From Bacteroidales bacterium (GTDB lineage: Bacteria > Bacteroidota > Bacteroidia > Bacteroidales > JAGOPY01): a DNA stretch of 41,441 nucleotides. The notes below the pieces were generated by a model, which had not been told where the DNA came from, made no database searches, and worked only from the letters and a program-made list of their open reading frames with translations. This document shows, piece after piece, positions 3,056 through 41,441 of this stretch. The DNA is taken from NCBI GenBank assembly GCA_030638325.1, contig DAOWEV010000210.1, positions 1 to 41,441 of the forward strand. The letters are read 5' to 3'. How positions within the stretch are numbered: the stretch's first letter is position 1; each line of letters starts with the position of its first letter. Both the position numbers and the translations under genes were made by a program.

Positions 3056-3820
3056 ATGACAAAAACCCTCTTAAAAAATTTCCTGAAGAAAATGGGGTAT
3101 GAGATCAGGAAAATCGACAAAACTGTAAATCCGGATGGCATACCCCTGGACATGACAGAACCAGCCTTTATCGACTTCTATAATAAGTGTAAAGATTATT
3201 CTGTTTGCTCGGTCGAACCTATGTATGCACTGTTCAAAGCCGTAGAATATATAGTCAGGAATAAAATAAACGGAGATCTTGTTGAATGTGGCGTTTATAA
3301 AGGCGGAAGTGCGATGATGATGGCCTATTCCCTGATGCATTTCAATGATACCAACAGAAAGATCTACCTCTATGACACCTTCGAAGGAATGTCGGAACCT
3401 ACTGATCATGACATTGATATTGAGGATCATTATGCCGGGGATCTTTTAAAAACCGGCAACCAAGAAGATAATGGCGTTTTATGCTACAGTCCCATCGAAG
3501 AAGTGAGAAGAAATATGGAATCTACCGGATACAATAAAGAAAACCTGGTATTTGTAAAAGGTAAAGTGGAAGATACTATCCCTAATAATATTTCCGAAAA
3601 GATAAGCCTCCTGAGACTGGATACTGACTGGTACGAATCAACTTACCATGAATTGGTCCATCTGTATCCTTTACTCGTGAAAGACGGAGTTCTTATCATA
3701 GATGATTACGGACACTGGAAAGGAGCGAGAAAAGCCGTGGACAAATATTTCAAATCCCGGTCTGTAAATATGTTATTGAACAGGGTGGATTATACCGTTC
3801 GTACCGGCATTAAAAAATAA
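3056..3820 (+). CDS. TylF/MycF-type (macrocin O-methyltransferase family) SAM-dependent methyltransferase
   Basis: GDLVECGVYKGGSAMMMA, YLYDTFEGMSEPT, LRLDTDWYESTYHEL, GVLIIDDYGHWKGARKAVD. Confidence 0.88.
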   Translation: MTKTLLKNFLKKMGYEIRKIDKTVNPDGIPLDMTEPAFIDFYNKCKDYSVCSVEPMYALFKAVEYIVRNKINGDLVECGVYKGGSAMMMAYSLMHFNDTNRKIYLYDTFEGMSEPTDHDIDIEDHYAGDLLKTGNQEDNGVLCYSPIEEVRRNMESTGYNKENLVFVKGKVEDTIPNNISEKISLLRLDTDWYESTYHELVHLYPLLVKDGVLIIDDYGHWKGARKAVDKYFKSRSVNMLLNRVDYTVRTGIKK

Positions 3821-11258: not shown

Positions 11259-13778
11259 ATGCTTACACTGCGAGATCTCAAAGAGGGTGAGAAAGGGATC
11301 ATCACGAAGGTCAAAGGTCGTGGTGCATTCCGTAAGCGTATCACCGAGATGGGTTTCATCAGAGGAAAATTGGTGACTGTCATCAGAAGCGCCCCTTTTC
11401 AAGACCCTGTGGAGTACCAGATATTAAAATCGTTTGTTTCAATACGACGTAGTGAAGCCAACCTCATTGAAGTCATTAGTGAAGCAGAAGCCAGGAAACA
11501 ACTGGGTGACGCTCAATACGAAGGAGTCATTACAGATGAGCAATTGAAGATCAGCGCCCATGAGAAAGGCCGTCAGATCGAAGTGGCCCTGGTTGGAAAT
11601 CCCAATTCCGGGAAGACTACACTCTTTAACTTTGCCTCCCACTCAAGAGGACATGTAGCCAACTATGGTGGGGTTACGATCGACTCCAAGCTTGCAACAT
11701 TCAAACAGGATGGATACGTTTTTAATATTACAGACCTTCCCGGTACCTATTCCATCACTGACTATTCACCTGAAGAACTGTTTGTCAGAAAACATATCCT
11801 GGGCACTTTCCCGGATGTTGTCATCAACGTGATTGACGCCTCCAACCTGGAGCGAAACCTGTATCTGACCACTCAACTGATCGACATGGACATAAAAGTG
11901 ATCGTGGCGTTGAATATGTATGATGAGCTTATTCTGAAGGGCGACCATTTTGATTATAAAAGCCTGGGAAACATGCTCGGAATACCTTTTGTCAGGACAG
12001 TAGCCACCAGGGGCAAAGGCATTAAAGAGCTGTTCCGGAAAGTCATTGATGTTTACGAGGACAAAGACCCGACGGTGCGGCATATCCACATCAATTACGG
12101 TGATGAAATAGAACAGTCGGTCAGGAGCGTACAGGAACCCCTCAGGGAAAACAAGATACTGATTGACAAGACATCTTCACGATATTATGCCATTAAACTT
12201 CTGGAGAAAGACAAGTCCACTGATTTTTCACTTTCCAGTCTTGATAATTACGAGGCGATCCGGAAAAGGTGTGATGAAGAGATAGGGAGACTTGAAAATA
12301 TCCTGGGGGAAGATAGCGAGACACTCATAACAGATGCCAAGTATGGGTTTATTGAAGGAGCGCTTAAGGAAACCTATACACCGGCCAGGATAGAAAAAAA
12401 ATCAATCAGCCAGAAGCTGGATTCCTTCTTCACCGGGAAATACCTGAGTTATCCCATTTTTGTTGCATTTATGTGGGTGATGTTCCAGACAACTTTCATT
12501 GTTGGCAAATACCCTGTTCTATGGATTGAAAGCCTGGTTGCCGTTACAGGCAATGCCGTTGACATAATACTACCTGAAAGCATGTTTAAAGACCTGCTGA
12601 TCGAAGGTATCATCGGGGGAGTAGGAGGTGTCATAGTGTTCCTTCCGAATATCCTGATCCTGTTTTTTTTCATATCGATCATGGAAGACTCCGGTTATAT
12701 GGCGAGGGTGGCATTCATTTTAGACAAGCTGATGCACAAAATAGGTTTGCACGGCAGGTCTTTCATCCCGCTGCTCATGGGCTTCGGCTGTAATGTACCA
12801 GCCATTATGGCTACCCGTACCATCGAAAACAAGACCGACCGGCTGGTGACCATGCTGGTTACGCCGTTCATGTCATGCAGTGCCCGTTATCCTATTTATA
12901 TCCTGCTCATCAGCGCCTTTTTCACAAGCCACCATGGAACGATATTGTTCGGCATCTATGCGTTTGGCATCATGCTGGCAGGAGCTGTTGCATGGTTATT
13001 AAAAAACACGCTCCTCAAATCACAGGAAATGCCCTTCGTGATGGAGTTACCTCCTTACCGGTTCCCTACCGTAAAAAGTATCATGAAGCATACCTGGTTC
13101 AAAGGTTCGCAGTATCTCCGCAAGATCGGTGGTGTGATCCTGATCGCCTCGGTGATTATCTGGGCATTGGGTTATTTTCCTAGAAACACCGGGGTAAATG
13201 ATCATTATGAAGTGATGATATTGCAGCTAACAGAAAAATATAACGATAAGATCTCTGTGGCAGCTCAGTGGGATCCGGAAAGTGTAGAAGGATTAAAAAA
13301 TGAGATGACTGACAGCATCTCAGGCCTGGAATCTGAGAAACAACGGTTACAGCAGGAATATTCATTTATCGGCCGCCTTGGTAAATTCATTGAGCCTGTA
13401 ATAGCACCACTGGGATTCGACTGGCGCACGGGAGTCAGCCTCATTGCAGGCGCCGCTGCCAAAGAGGTGGTGGTAAGCACCATGGGTGTTCTTTATCAAT
13501 CCCATACAGAAAAAGACACCAATGGACTGATCTCAACATTACGCAACCTGACTTACAACAGTGGTAAACTGAAAGGTCAGAAGGTATTCTCCCCCCTCAT
13601 CGCCCTTACCATCATGCTCTTCGTCCTTATCTATTTCCCGTGCATCGCTGTCATTGCCACTATCAAAAAGGAGTCCGGGGCATGGAAATGGTCATTGTTC
13701 CTAATGGTTTACACTACGGCAATGGCCTGGACAATATCCTTTCTCTTTTATCAGGGAGGAACGCTGTTGGGGTTTTAG
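11259..13778 (+). CDS. feoB: ferrous iron transport protein, FeoA domain fused to FeoB
   Basis: FeoA-like N-terminus (MLTLRDLKEGEKGIITKVKGRGAFRKRITEMGFIRG), then GNPNSGKTTLFN, DLPGTYS, NVIDASNLERNLYLT, Gate motifs. Confidence 0.95.
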   Translation: MLTLRDLKEGEKGIITKVKGRGAFRKRITEMGFIRGKLVTVIRSAPFQDPVEYQILKSFVSIRRSEANLIEVISEAEARKQLGDAQYEGVITDEQLKISAHEKGRQIEVALVGNPNSGKTTLFNFASHSRGHVANYGGVTIDSKLATFKQDGYVFNITDLPGTYSITDYSPEELFVRKHILGTFPDVVINVIDASNLERNLYLTTQLIDMDIKVIVALNMYDELILKGDHFDYKSLGNMLGIPFVRTVATRGKGIKELFRKVIDVYEDKDPTVRHIHINYGDEIEQSVRSVQEPLRENKILIDKTSSRYYAIKLLEKDKSTDFSLSSLDNYEAIRKRCDEEIGRLENILGEDSETLITDAKYGFIEGALKETYTPARIEKKSISQKLDSFFTGKYLSYPIFVAFMWVMFQTTFIVGKYPVLWIESLVAVTGNAVDIILPESMFKDLLIEGIIGGVGGVIVFLPNILILFFFISIMEDSGYMARVAFILDKLMHKIGLHGRSFIPLLMGFGCNVPAIMATRTIENKTDRLVTMLVTPFMSCSARYPIYILLISAFFTSHHGTILFGIYAFGIMLAGAVAWLLKNTLLKSQEMPFVMELPPYRFPTVKSIMKHTWFKGSQYLRKIGGVILIASVIIWALGYFPRNTGVNDHYEVMILQLTEKYNDKISVAAQWDPESVEGLKNEMTDSISGLESEKQRLQQEYSFIGRLGKFIEPVIAPLGFDWRTGVSLIAGAAAKEVVVSTMGVLYQSHTEKDTNGLISTLRNLTYNSGKLKGQKVFSPLIALTIMLFVLIYFPCIAVIATIKKESGAWKWSLFLMVYTTAMAWTISFLFYQGGTLLGF

Positions 13779-21971: not shown

Positions 21972-22012
21972 TGATGTATTATTTCTATTTTCGGTTCAAC
22001 CGCAAATTTAAT

Positions 22013-22186
<174 letters not shown>

Positions 22187-22216
22187 AAATAATGGCAATG
22201 CCCCAATTTCTATTTT

Positions 22217-25720: not shown

Positions 25721-25759
25721 CCAATTGATTGATAAATATGGTTCAGCCACATATTTAAC

Positions 25760-25836
25760 GGAAGTCGGAAGTCCGAAGTCAGAAGTCGGAAAGGGTTTAA
25801 CAACTTCTGTCTTCCGTCTCCGGACTTCCGACTACA
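25760..25836. repeat. heptamer array inverting in register
   Basis: GGAAGTC GGAAGTC CGAAGTC AGAAGTC GGAAAGG GTTTAAC AACTTCT GTCTTCC GTCTCCG GACTTCC GACTACA. Confidence 0.85.
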
Positions 25837-25855
25837 ATAATGGCAATGCCATAAG

Positions 25856-34934: not shown

Positions 34935-35435
34935 ATGCGACAGATAGGCCTTCTTTCAGACACCCACGGTTTTATTCATCCTAAAATATATGAGTTTTTT
35001 AAGCCGTGCAATGAGATCTGGCATGCCGGGGATGCAGGGAATCTTGAACTCCTGGATCAATTGAAGGCTTTCAGGCCGTTGCGGGCGGTCTATGGAAATA
35101 TTGACGGCCAGGATATCAGGATCACTTATCCTGAAAAACAAATATTTTTTTGTGAAGATGTAAAGGTATTTATGGTCCATATTGGCGGGTATCCCGGCAG
35201 ATATAATCCCCTTATCAGGAAAATCATAGAACGGGAAAGGCCTAAGCTGTTTATTTCAGGACATTCTCATATCCTGAAAGTCATACCTGACAAAAAATAT
35301 AATTTATTGCATATAAATCCGGGTGCGGCAGGAAAATTCGGATTACACAACAAGATCACCTTTGTACGGTTTGTTATTGATAAGGATAACATTCAAGACC
35401 TTGAGGTGATGGAAATTAAGAGATCACAGGGGTGA
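34935..35435 (+). CDS. YfcE/MJ0936-family metallophosphoesterase
   Basis: IGLLSDTHGFIHPKIYEFFKPCNEIWHAGDAGNLELLD, AVYGNIDG, VHIGGYPGRY, FISGHSHILKV, INPGAAG. Confidence 0.92.
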   Translation: MRQIGLLSDTHGFIHPKIYEFFKPCNEIWHAGDAGNLELLDQLKAFRPLRAVYGNIDGQDIRITYPEKQIFFCEDVKVFMVHIGGYPGRYNPLIRKIIERERPKLFISGHSHILKVIPDKKYNLLHINPGAAGKFGLHNKITFVRFVIDKDNIQDLEVMEIKRSQG

Positions 35436-35439
35436 ATCT

Positions 35440-35530
35440 GGGGATCGGAAGTCCGAAGTCGGAAGCAGGTCAACCGTCGACCGTCAACCGTCAACTGTTC
35501 CCATCTTCGGACTTCCGACTTCGGTCTTCC
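35440..35530. repeat. heptamer array, three motif families in one register
   Basis: GGGGATC GGAAGTC CGAAGTC GGAAGCA GGTCAAC CGTCGAC CGTCAAC CGTCAAC TGTTCCC ATCTTCG GACTTCC GACTTCG GTCTTCC. Confidence 0.88.
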
Positions 35531-35557
35531 ATTAAATTCTGGGTTGAATATAGCAGA

Positions 35558-36034
35558 TTACCTCAACCGGTCGGCAGACCTAATGAGCTTTTCATCTTTT
35601 CTGATAAACTTATCAGCCAGGATCATGAATATCAGGGCAATGAATGGGAAATAGATACCGTAATCGCTCTTATAATCGGGTATTGCATTGATCTTTTGCT
35701 CTATCGTTGGAGCATAGTAGAAAAATATCAAAGCAACAAAAACAAGCAACAGGAAAATTGCGAGACGCAGCAACCGCATTTGCATGACCCTTTTTTTATA
35801 CAGGAATATGGTGATCAGCGACATCAGCCCGGCGACCGCATTCAACAATACCAATGGCAGGGTAAACAAGGAAGAGAATGCCGGGGCGGTATCGGGGGTC
35901 ATGCTCCTGAATTCATAAATATATAGCTTATAATAGGCAAACTCTGATAAAAAACTTGCCAGCGGAAAGAAAAACGCACAAATAGTTGCAGCCGCCGCCA
36001 GCAGTAAAAAAACGGTCTGTATCCTCTGTAACAT
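35558..36034 (-). CDS. DUF4293 family membrane protein
   Basis: MLQRIQTVFLLLAAAATICAFFFPLASF, four predicted TM segments, Bacteroidota-specific family. Confidence 0.82.
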   Translation of the reverse strand: MLQRIQTVFLLLAAAATICAFFFPLASFLSEFAYYKLYIYEFRSMTPDTAPAFSSLFTLPLVLLNAVAGLMSLITIFLYKKRVMQMRLLRLAIFLLLVFVALIFFYYAPTIEQKINAIPDYKSDYGIYFPFIALIFMILADKFIRKDEKLIRSADRLR

Positions 36035-41370: not shown

Positions 41371-41441
41371 CCTGATAACTGTTTCCTGATAACTGTTTCC
41401 TGATAACTGTTTCCTGATAACTGTTTCCTGATAACTGTTTC
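41371..41441. repeat. tandem array, 14-bp unit CCTGATAACTGTTT, 5 copies, cut by the window end
   Basis: Five identical units plus one base. Confidence 0.95.

Follow-up and report, generated by a model that had tools for sequence, protein, structure and literature searches.

The run of thirteen heptads at positions 35440-35530 of the window, the whole 41,441-nucleotide stretch of Bacteroidales DNA analysed here (contig 150 in an assembly of 2.75 Mb and 79% completeness), is probably a single decayed copy of a MITE, a kind of non-autonomous transposable element. One of the two terminal repeats of the element family, end A, lies on the minus strand just outside the right heptad arm (Table 1). 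A profile built without this copy recovers positions 35529-35548 at 15.0 bits; within the window this match has E 0.0013 and ranks second, behind the complete copy at 21993 alone. The smaller E-value from a profile that had this copy among its seeds is circular. The end also has A at base 6 together with a heptad interior, matching the heptad subfamily. At the left edge of the block the best match to the other terminal repeat, end B, covers 9-11 of 22 positions, and no left 8-mer equals the right flank TAGCAGAT. It is because end B and the 8-bp target duplication are absent that the copy is called decayed and not intact.

The earlier note had read the block as one element with a 7-nt grammar, not three abutting microsatellites. 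The single element is supported, but on other grounds, namely the 22-nt end, the 8-bp duplications in the family and a motif junction that keeps one register at 16/16 places. An apparent 7-nt code is recast as a testable mobile element. Its ends and the length of its duplication are defined, as are its copies in three families of the order, which makes it possible to mask, count and trace it.

The heptad block and its neighbours

On direct reading, the letters, coordinates and partition of the 13 heptads are all exact. Matches at lag 7 number 54/84 (0.64) within the block compared to 0.27 across the whole window, and its tandem 7-nt units in an intergenic spacer make it a long simple sequence repeat of the heptad-array type. 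The outer arms had been described as near reverse complements, which was confirmed, and they contain a perfect 14-bp stem (TCGGAAGTCCGAAG/CTTCGGACTTCCGA). The convergent neighbours were likewise confirmed by Pfam, as Metallophos_2 on the plus strand and DUF4293 on the minus strand. An Rfam search gave nothing over the gathering threshold, only chance miRNA hairpin matches (E 0.065 and 0.16), and a plasmid search gave no match.

Table 1. Positions of the block, its parts, its neighbours and related copies in the window
Feature	Position	Strand	Basis
Left neighbour, calcineurin-like phosphoesterase (Metallophos_2)	34935..35435	+	Pfam PF12850, E 2.7e-29
Left edge, AATCTGGGGATC...	35436..35446	.	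end B and target duplication expected, absent
Left heptad arm, GGAAGTC CGAAGTC GGAAGCA	35447..35467	+	direct reading
Inner heptads, minus-strand GTTGACG GTTGACG GTCGACG GTTGACC	35468..35495	-	direct reading; TRF 35469-35495, period 7
Recurrent junction, minus-strand CGAAGAT GGGAACA (plus-strand TGTTCCC ATCTTCG)	35496..35509	-	GAAGTC to GGGAACA register, 16/16 loci
Right heptad arm, plus-strand GACTTCC GACTTCG GTCTTCC	35510..35530	-	direct reading
Terminal repeat end A, TATTCAACCCAGAATTTAATGG	35529..35550	-	18/22 to consensus GGTTCAACCACGAATTTAATGG; genome pattern search and left-out profile
Right neighbour, DUF4293	35558..36034	-	Pfam PF14126, E 7.9e-38
Related copy, end A left, end B right, GAAGTC...GACTTC arms	21993..22202	.	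ends 19/22 and 18/22
Related copy, both ends recognisable	25740..25850	.	end A 18/22; end B by profile

Convergent neighbours and a strong RNA fold (-43.7 kcal/mol, z -4.66) are what a bidirectional transcription terminator would offer, with its hairpin kept under selection. This is nevertheless a very improbable account of the block, as no T-run follows the stem and no terminator was called. Moreover, arm complementarity within a locus does not exceed that between loci (p 0.98). Spacers with both arms show no preference for convergent genes either, as they occur at 4/78 in convergent, 3/92 in divergent, and 3/210 and 5/185 in aligned arrangements. Relatives also lack an array at the same convergent gene pair, which is separated by a 27-nt spacer in G007 and by a 0-nt spacer in G015.

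A family with conserved ends and 8-bp duplications

Paired loci share recurrent sequences beyond their arms, at the ends, that are not repetitive. They form imperfect 22-bp terminal inverted repeats, of which end A reads GGTTC[A/T]ACCACGAATTTAATGG and end B reads GGTTTTACTGTTATTTTAATGG, with variants; the end pair of the family is also written GGTTCWACCACGAATTTAATGG and GGTTTTACTGTTATTTTAATGG. A pattern search of the genome for these ends gave 55 matches, including the one at the block, versus 14 in a reversed control, and both ends are paired at 23 loci. An exact 8-nt direct repeat flanks 11 of the 18 well-supported complete copies (for example TTACTTTT, AATTTTTT, AAATTATA and CTTTATCA), and the duplicated target is A+T-rich. 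Flanking repeats of 4-7 or 9-12 nt were found in 0/18 copies and of 3 nt in one. This signal emerged only with the conserved ends taken as the block limits. When direct repeats were sought around all heptad blocks, the fraction with a score of 7 or more was 0.118 within versus 0.095 across, with a low permutation p that is driven mainly by a single locus, L088.

The well-supported copies are 89-243 bp long, inside the MITE range of 50-1000 bp without an internal transposase gene. As such, the family shows the shared terminal inverted repeats, fixed-length target duplication and size of MITEs. The interiors consist of inverted arms of 7- or 8-nt tandem repeats that read inward from each end, and heptad and octad interiors are split by base 6 of end A (A/T 8/4 for heptads vs 2/20 for octads, Fisher p 9e-4). 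G051 and G009, which belong to two further families of the order, contain the same ends, G051 at 18 places and G009 at one, where the copy carries GGAAGTCCGAAG arms; with the genome under study, copies are thus present in three families. Of the two related copies in the window, the one at 25740..25850 was no seed of the end B profile.

Octad arms (ATGATTAA / ATGCTTAA) and exact 8-bp duplications characterise a sister subfamily of the MITE, as seen in the copies at L221:1387-1522, L230:1501-1644, L237:99-242 and L239:1501-1699.

Motif order and the register across the inversion

The proposed grammar was that the 7-nt register runs unbroken through the strand inversion, with arm-to-arm distances in multiples of 7. 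It was examined on neighbouring GAAGTC then GACTTC pairs no more than 150 nt apart in 1.14 Mb of the same genome (n = 16); the opposite order, GACTTC then GAAGTC, gave 0 pairs under the same limits. Innermost arm distances modulo 7 are distributed as 1, 4, 0, 1, 1, 6 and 3 for residues 0 to 6. The class of the block, which is 6 in this measure, holds 3/16 pairs where 2.3 are expected, and the prediction failed. Inverted arms always admit a heptad partition when the distance between them is divisible by 7, which has a 1-in-7 chance, and it was not confirmed that a single register of this kind carries any meaning. With 3/16 pairs in the class, the even register across the inversion of the block is a coincidence, and with no excess of arm complementarity (p = 0.98) a 7-nt grammar through the inversion is unsupported. 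Fold-back copying, or maintained pairing of the arms, was rejected on that same comparison of loci.

Part of the reported grammar is real, namely the motif order and the register at the junction. On a single strand, GAGAGTT stands ahead of GAAGTC at 29:5 and GAAGTC ahead of GGGAACA at 16:3, with GTTGACA/GTTAACA following GGGAACA. The spacing from GAAGTC to GGGAACA is 6, 13, 20 or 27, and so in one register at all 16 places, a register that length changes in whole units would keep. The fixed register across loci indicates that the junction was copied and not created anew at each locus. Read on the minus strand, the odd heptads TGTTCCC ATCTTCG of the block prove to be this junction. A scan of named genomes for the junction gave 5 matches, of which just the Bacteroidales one was inspected; it has no array around it and was taken as chance.

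Short-unit arrays across the genome

Arrays of period 7 are common in the spacers of this genome, with 121 intergenic and 5 coding in 441 kb. In the same 441 kb, period-8 arrays are scarcer (42 intergenic, 1 coding), and periods 4, 5, 6, 9, 10, 11 and 13 have 0 or 1 intergenic array apiece. The motif GGAAGTCNGAAGTC, noted for the left arm of the block, has 102 occurrences genome-wide and 0 in the reversed control. Moreover, same-family relatives bear heptad arrays of different motifs. Among 14 orderly GAAGTC...GACTTC pairs, 4 lie in spacers with an end matching at least 17/22, which places most arrays of the GAAGTC motif outside recognisable copies of the element; some of the other paired spacers have weaker B-like ends, as judged by eye.

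This abundance, the changing motifs of the relatives and the many arrays outside copies would all be expected if the block were three independent heptanucleotide microsatellites that slippage, without any mobile element, had made next to one another in a spacer that tolerates them. Such an origin is unlikely, however, as the motif junctions recur at many loci in one register and order (16/16 and 16:3 for GAAGTC and GGGAACA) and a 22-nt end of dispersed occurrence adjoins the block.

Proposed mobilisation and the search for a transposase

For the preferred reading, a decayed MITE copy, the proposed course is as follows. A DDE transposase acting in trans would have moved the element into the spacer between the gene pair; elsewhere in the order, in other families, this spacer measures 0-27 nt. 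Replication slippage would then lengthen or shorten the arms by whole repeat units, and because slippage moves whole units, the register within an arm would be kept. Afterwards, the copy at the block would have lost its left end. The effect of the element on both neighbouring genes is probably neutral.

Target duplications of about 8 bp are made by ISL3, IS1595, ISAs1, IS256 and IS66. In the stretches read, no autonomous copy or transposase with the same ends was found beside unpaired ends. No IS1595 transposase was found in this genome or in G051, and no ISL3 transposase in this genome. As for REP/RAYT elements, the genome has 9 Y1_Tnp (RAYT) matches, and the 200-nt flanks of the Y1 transposase loci contain no GAAGTC array at the 7 readable loci.

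In G051, a broken ISL3-type transposase adjoins a complete MITE copy on its outside (L257:741-1037; contig 82, about 3396-3770). Its own ends differ from those of the MITE.

Purine polarity of the arrays

Purines predominate in the heptad arrays next to the left gene edge, and pyrimidines in those next to the right one. Where a spacer in the genome sample has several heptad arrays, the first is the purine-richer in 122/168 (122:46), and this persists in spacers without element ends (111/157). The polarity is seen in all four gene arrangements, with the non-array spacer DNA near neutral, and period-8 arrays show it as well (32:7). The purine-inward polarity is found here with many motifs, and in Xanthomonas it was reported with another motif. 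It is a quite unlikely but broader proposition that arrays in different phyla grow by the same directional process, which generates this polarity, and that the MITE arms are one site of its action.

A related proposal is that purine-rich heptads are added to the 3' ends of broken DNA, which are then joined head to head, similar to fused telomeres. Purine-rich arrays do run inward from the gene edge in all arrangements, also without element ends (111:46; FR 10, RF 0), and the same placement has been reported for the GGGAATC repeats of Xanthomonas (PMC4692102). Where element ends and 8-bp duplications are present, however, they better explain the paired arms, and no Ku gene for an NHEJ-type process was found in the 79%-complete genome. 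Growth at broken ends is therefore an extremely improbable origin for the block.

The paired arms, which the element explains, can now be separated from the polarity of heptad arrays elsewhere, which it does not; this polarity had already been reported, without explanation, in Xanthomonas. Furthermore, a MITE whose tandem-repeat arms can be replaced, with 7-nt units in one subfamily and 8-nt units in the other, offers a natural record of short-repeat growth.

Comparison with known repeats

The same order already includes MITEs that contain tandem repeats, namely BrickBuilt and PgRS of Porphyromonas gingivalis (PMC4596501). BrickBuilt and MITEPgRS/MITE464 resemble the present family in being short intergenic MITEs with terminal inverted repeats and a tandem-repeat interior (PMC4596501). 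However, BrickBuilt has 12-bp ends like GAGACCTTTGCA (IS5 type), a 4-nt flanking repeat and a 23-nt unit in one direction, whereas the present family has 22-bp ends (GGTTCWACC...), an 8-bp duplication and inverted arms of 7-/8-nt units, and spans three families. Membership of BrickBuilt was rejected, as the GAGACCTTTGCA ends and the 23-nt unit are not matched. In the open-access literature searched, BrickBuilt is the nearest known kind of element, and the present family differs from BrickBuilt/PgRS in ends, duplication length, unit length and inverted layout.

In many bacteria, heptads outnumber all other long simple repeats (reviewed in PMC4679880). GGGAATC and GGGGA(C/T)T arrays are known from Xanthomonas and Nostoc as dispersed intergenic heptads by the 5'-neighbouring ORF (PMC4692102). 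In Xanthomonas they lie near that ORF whatever its direction, with 70-75 convergent pairs, and often form convergent inverted pairs like the present arms (PMC4692102). The Xanthomonas/Nostoc heptads are G-quadruplex-forming and have no association with mobile elements (PMC4692102), whereas the present GGAAGTC has no G-tracts and its paired arms lie partly inside MITE copies. Similarly, TAACTGA heptamers form intergenic arrays in Beggiatoaceae, Cyanobacteria and some Bacteroidetes, where they are mostly of one motif, stand directly upstream of start codons and have been proposed as a translational regulator (PMC4679880). In contrast, the present arrays have several motifs in a fixed order and occur in every gene context.

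TAACTGA arrays occur in the present genome too, several of them beside GAAGTC-GGGAACA composites. As direct repeats they form 12 arrays in 1.14 Mb, several directly after the GAAGTC-GGGAACA junction (sites include L042:30-78, L085:8051 and 12073-12107, L151:2830-2871, and L163 at 6515 on the minus strand).

Other dispersed sequences near the arrays

Heptad arrays lie within 100 nt of 28/168 contig ends compared to 24/420 positions inside contigs (in the window at 4-76 and 41371-41441), and repeats probably broke the assembly at these ends. A dispersed tail, AAAGCAATTTTACTTTTGGCTTTGAAAAAAACTTGCTAAAAAAACAAG, follows several GAAGTC arrays (approximate sites L074:12465, L080:5905, L087:6560, L090:3770, L150:2040 and L160:14790). 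Finally, the perfect palindrome CCCCGAAAGCTTTCGGGG, or its AATGC / AGCAT variants, lies within or adjoining GAAGTC arrays at 13 places (L142:2936, L074:12438, L085:12019, L151:2734, L160:14732 and 8 more) and may be a second small dispersed element.
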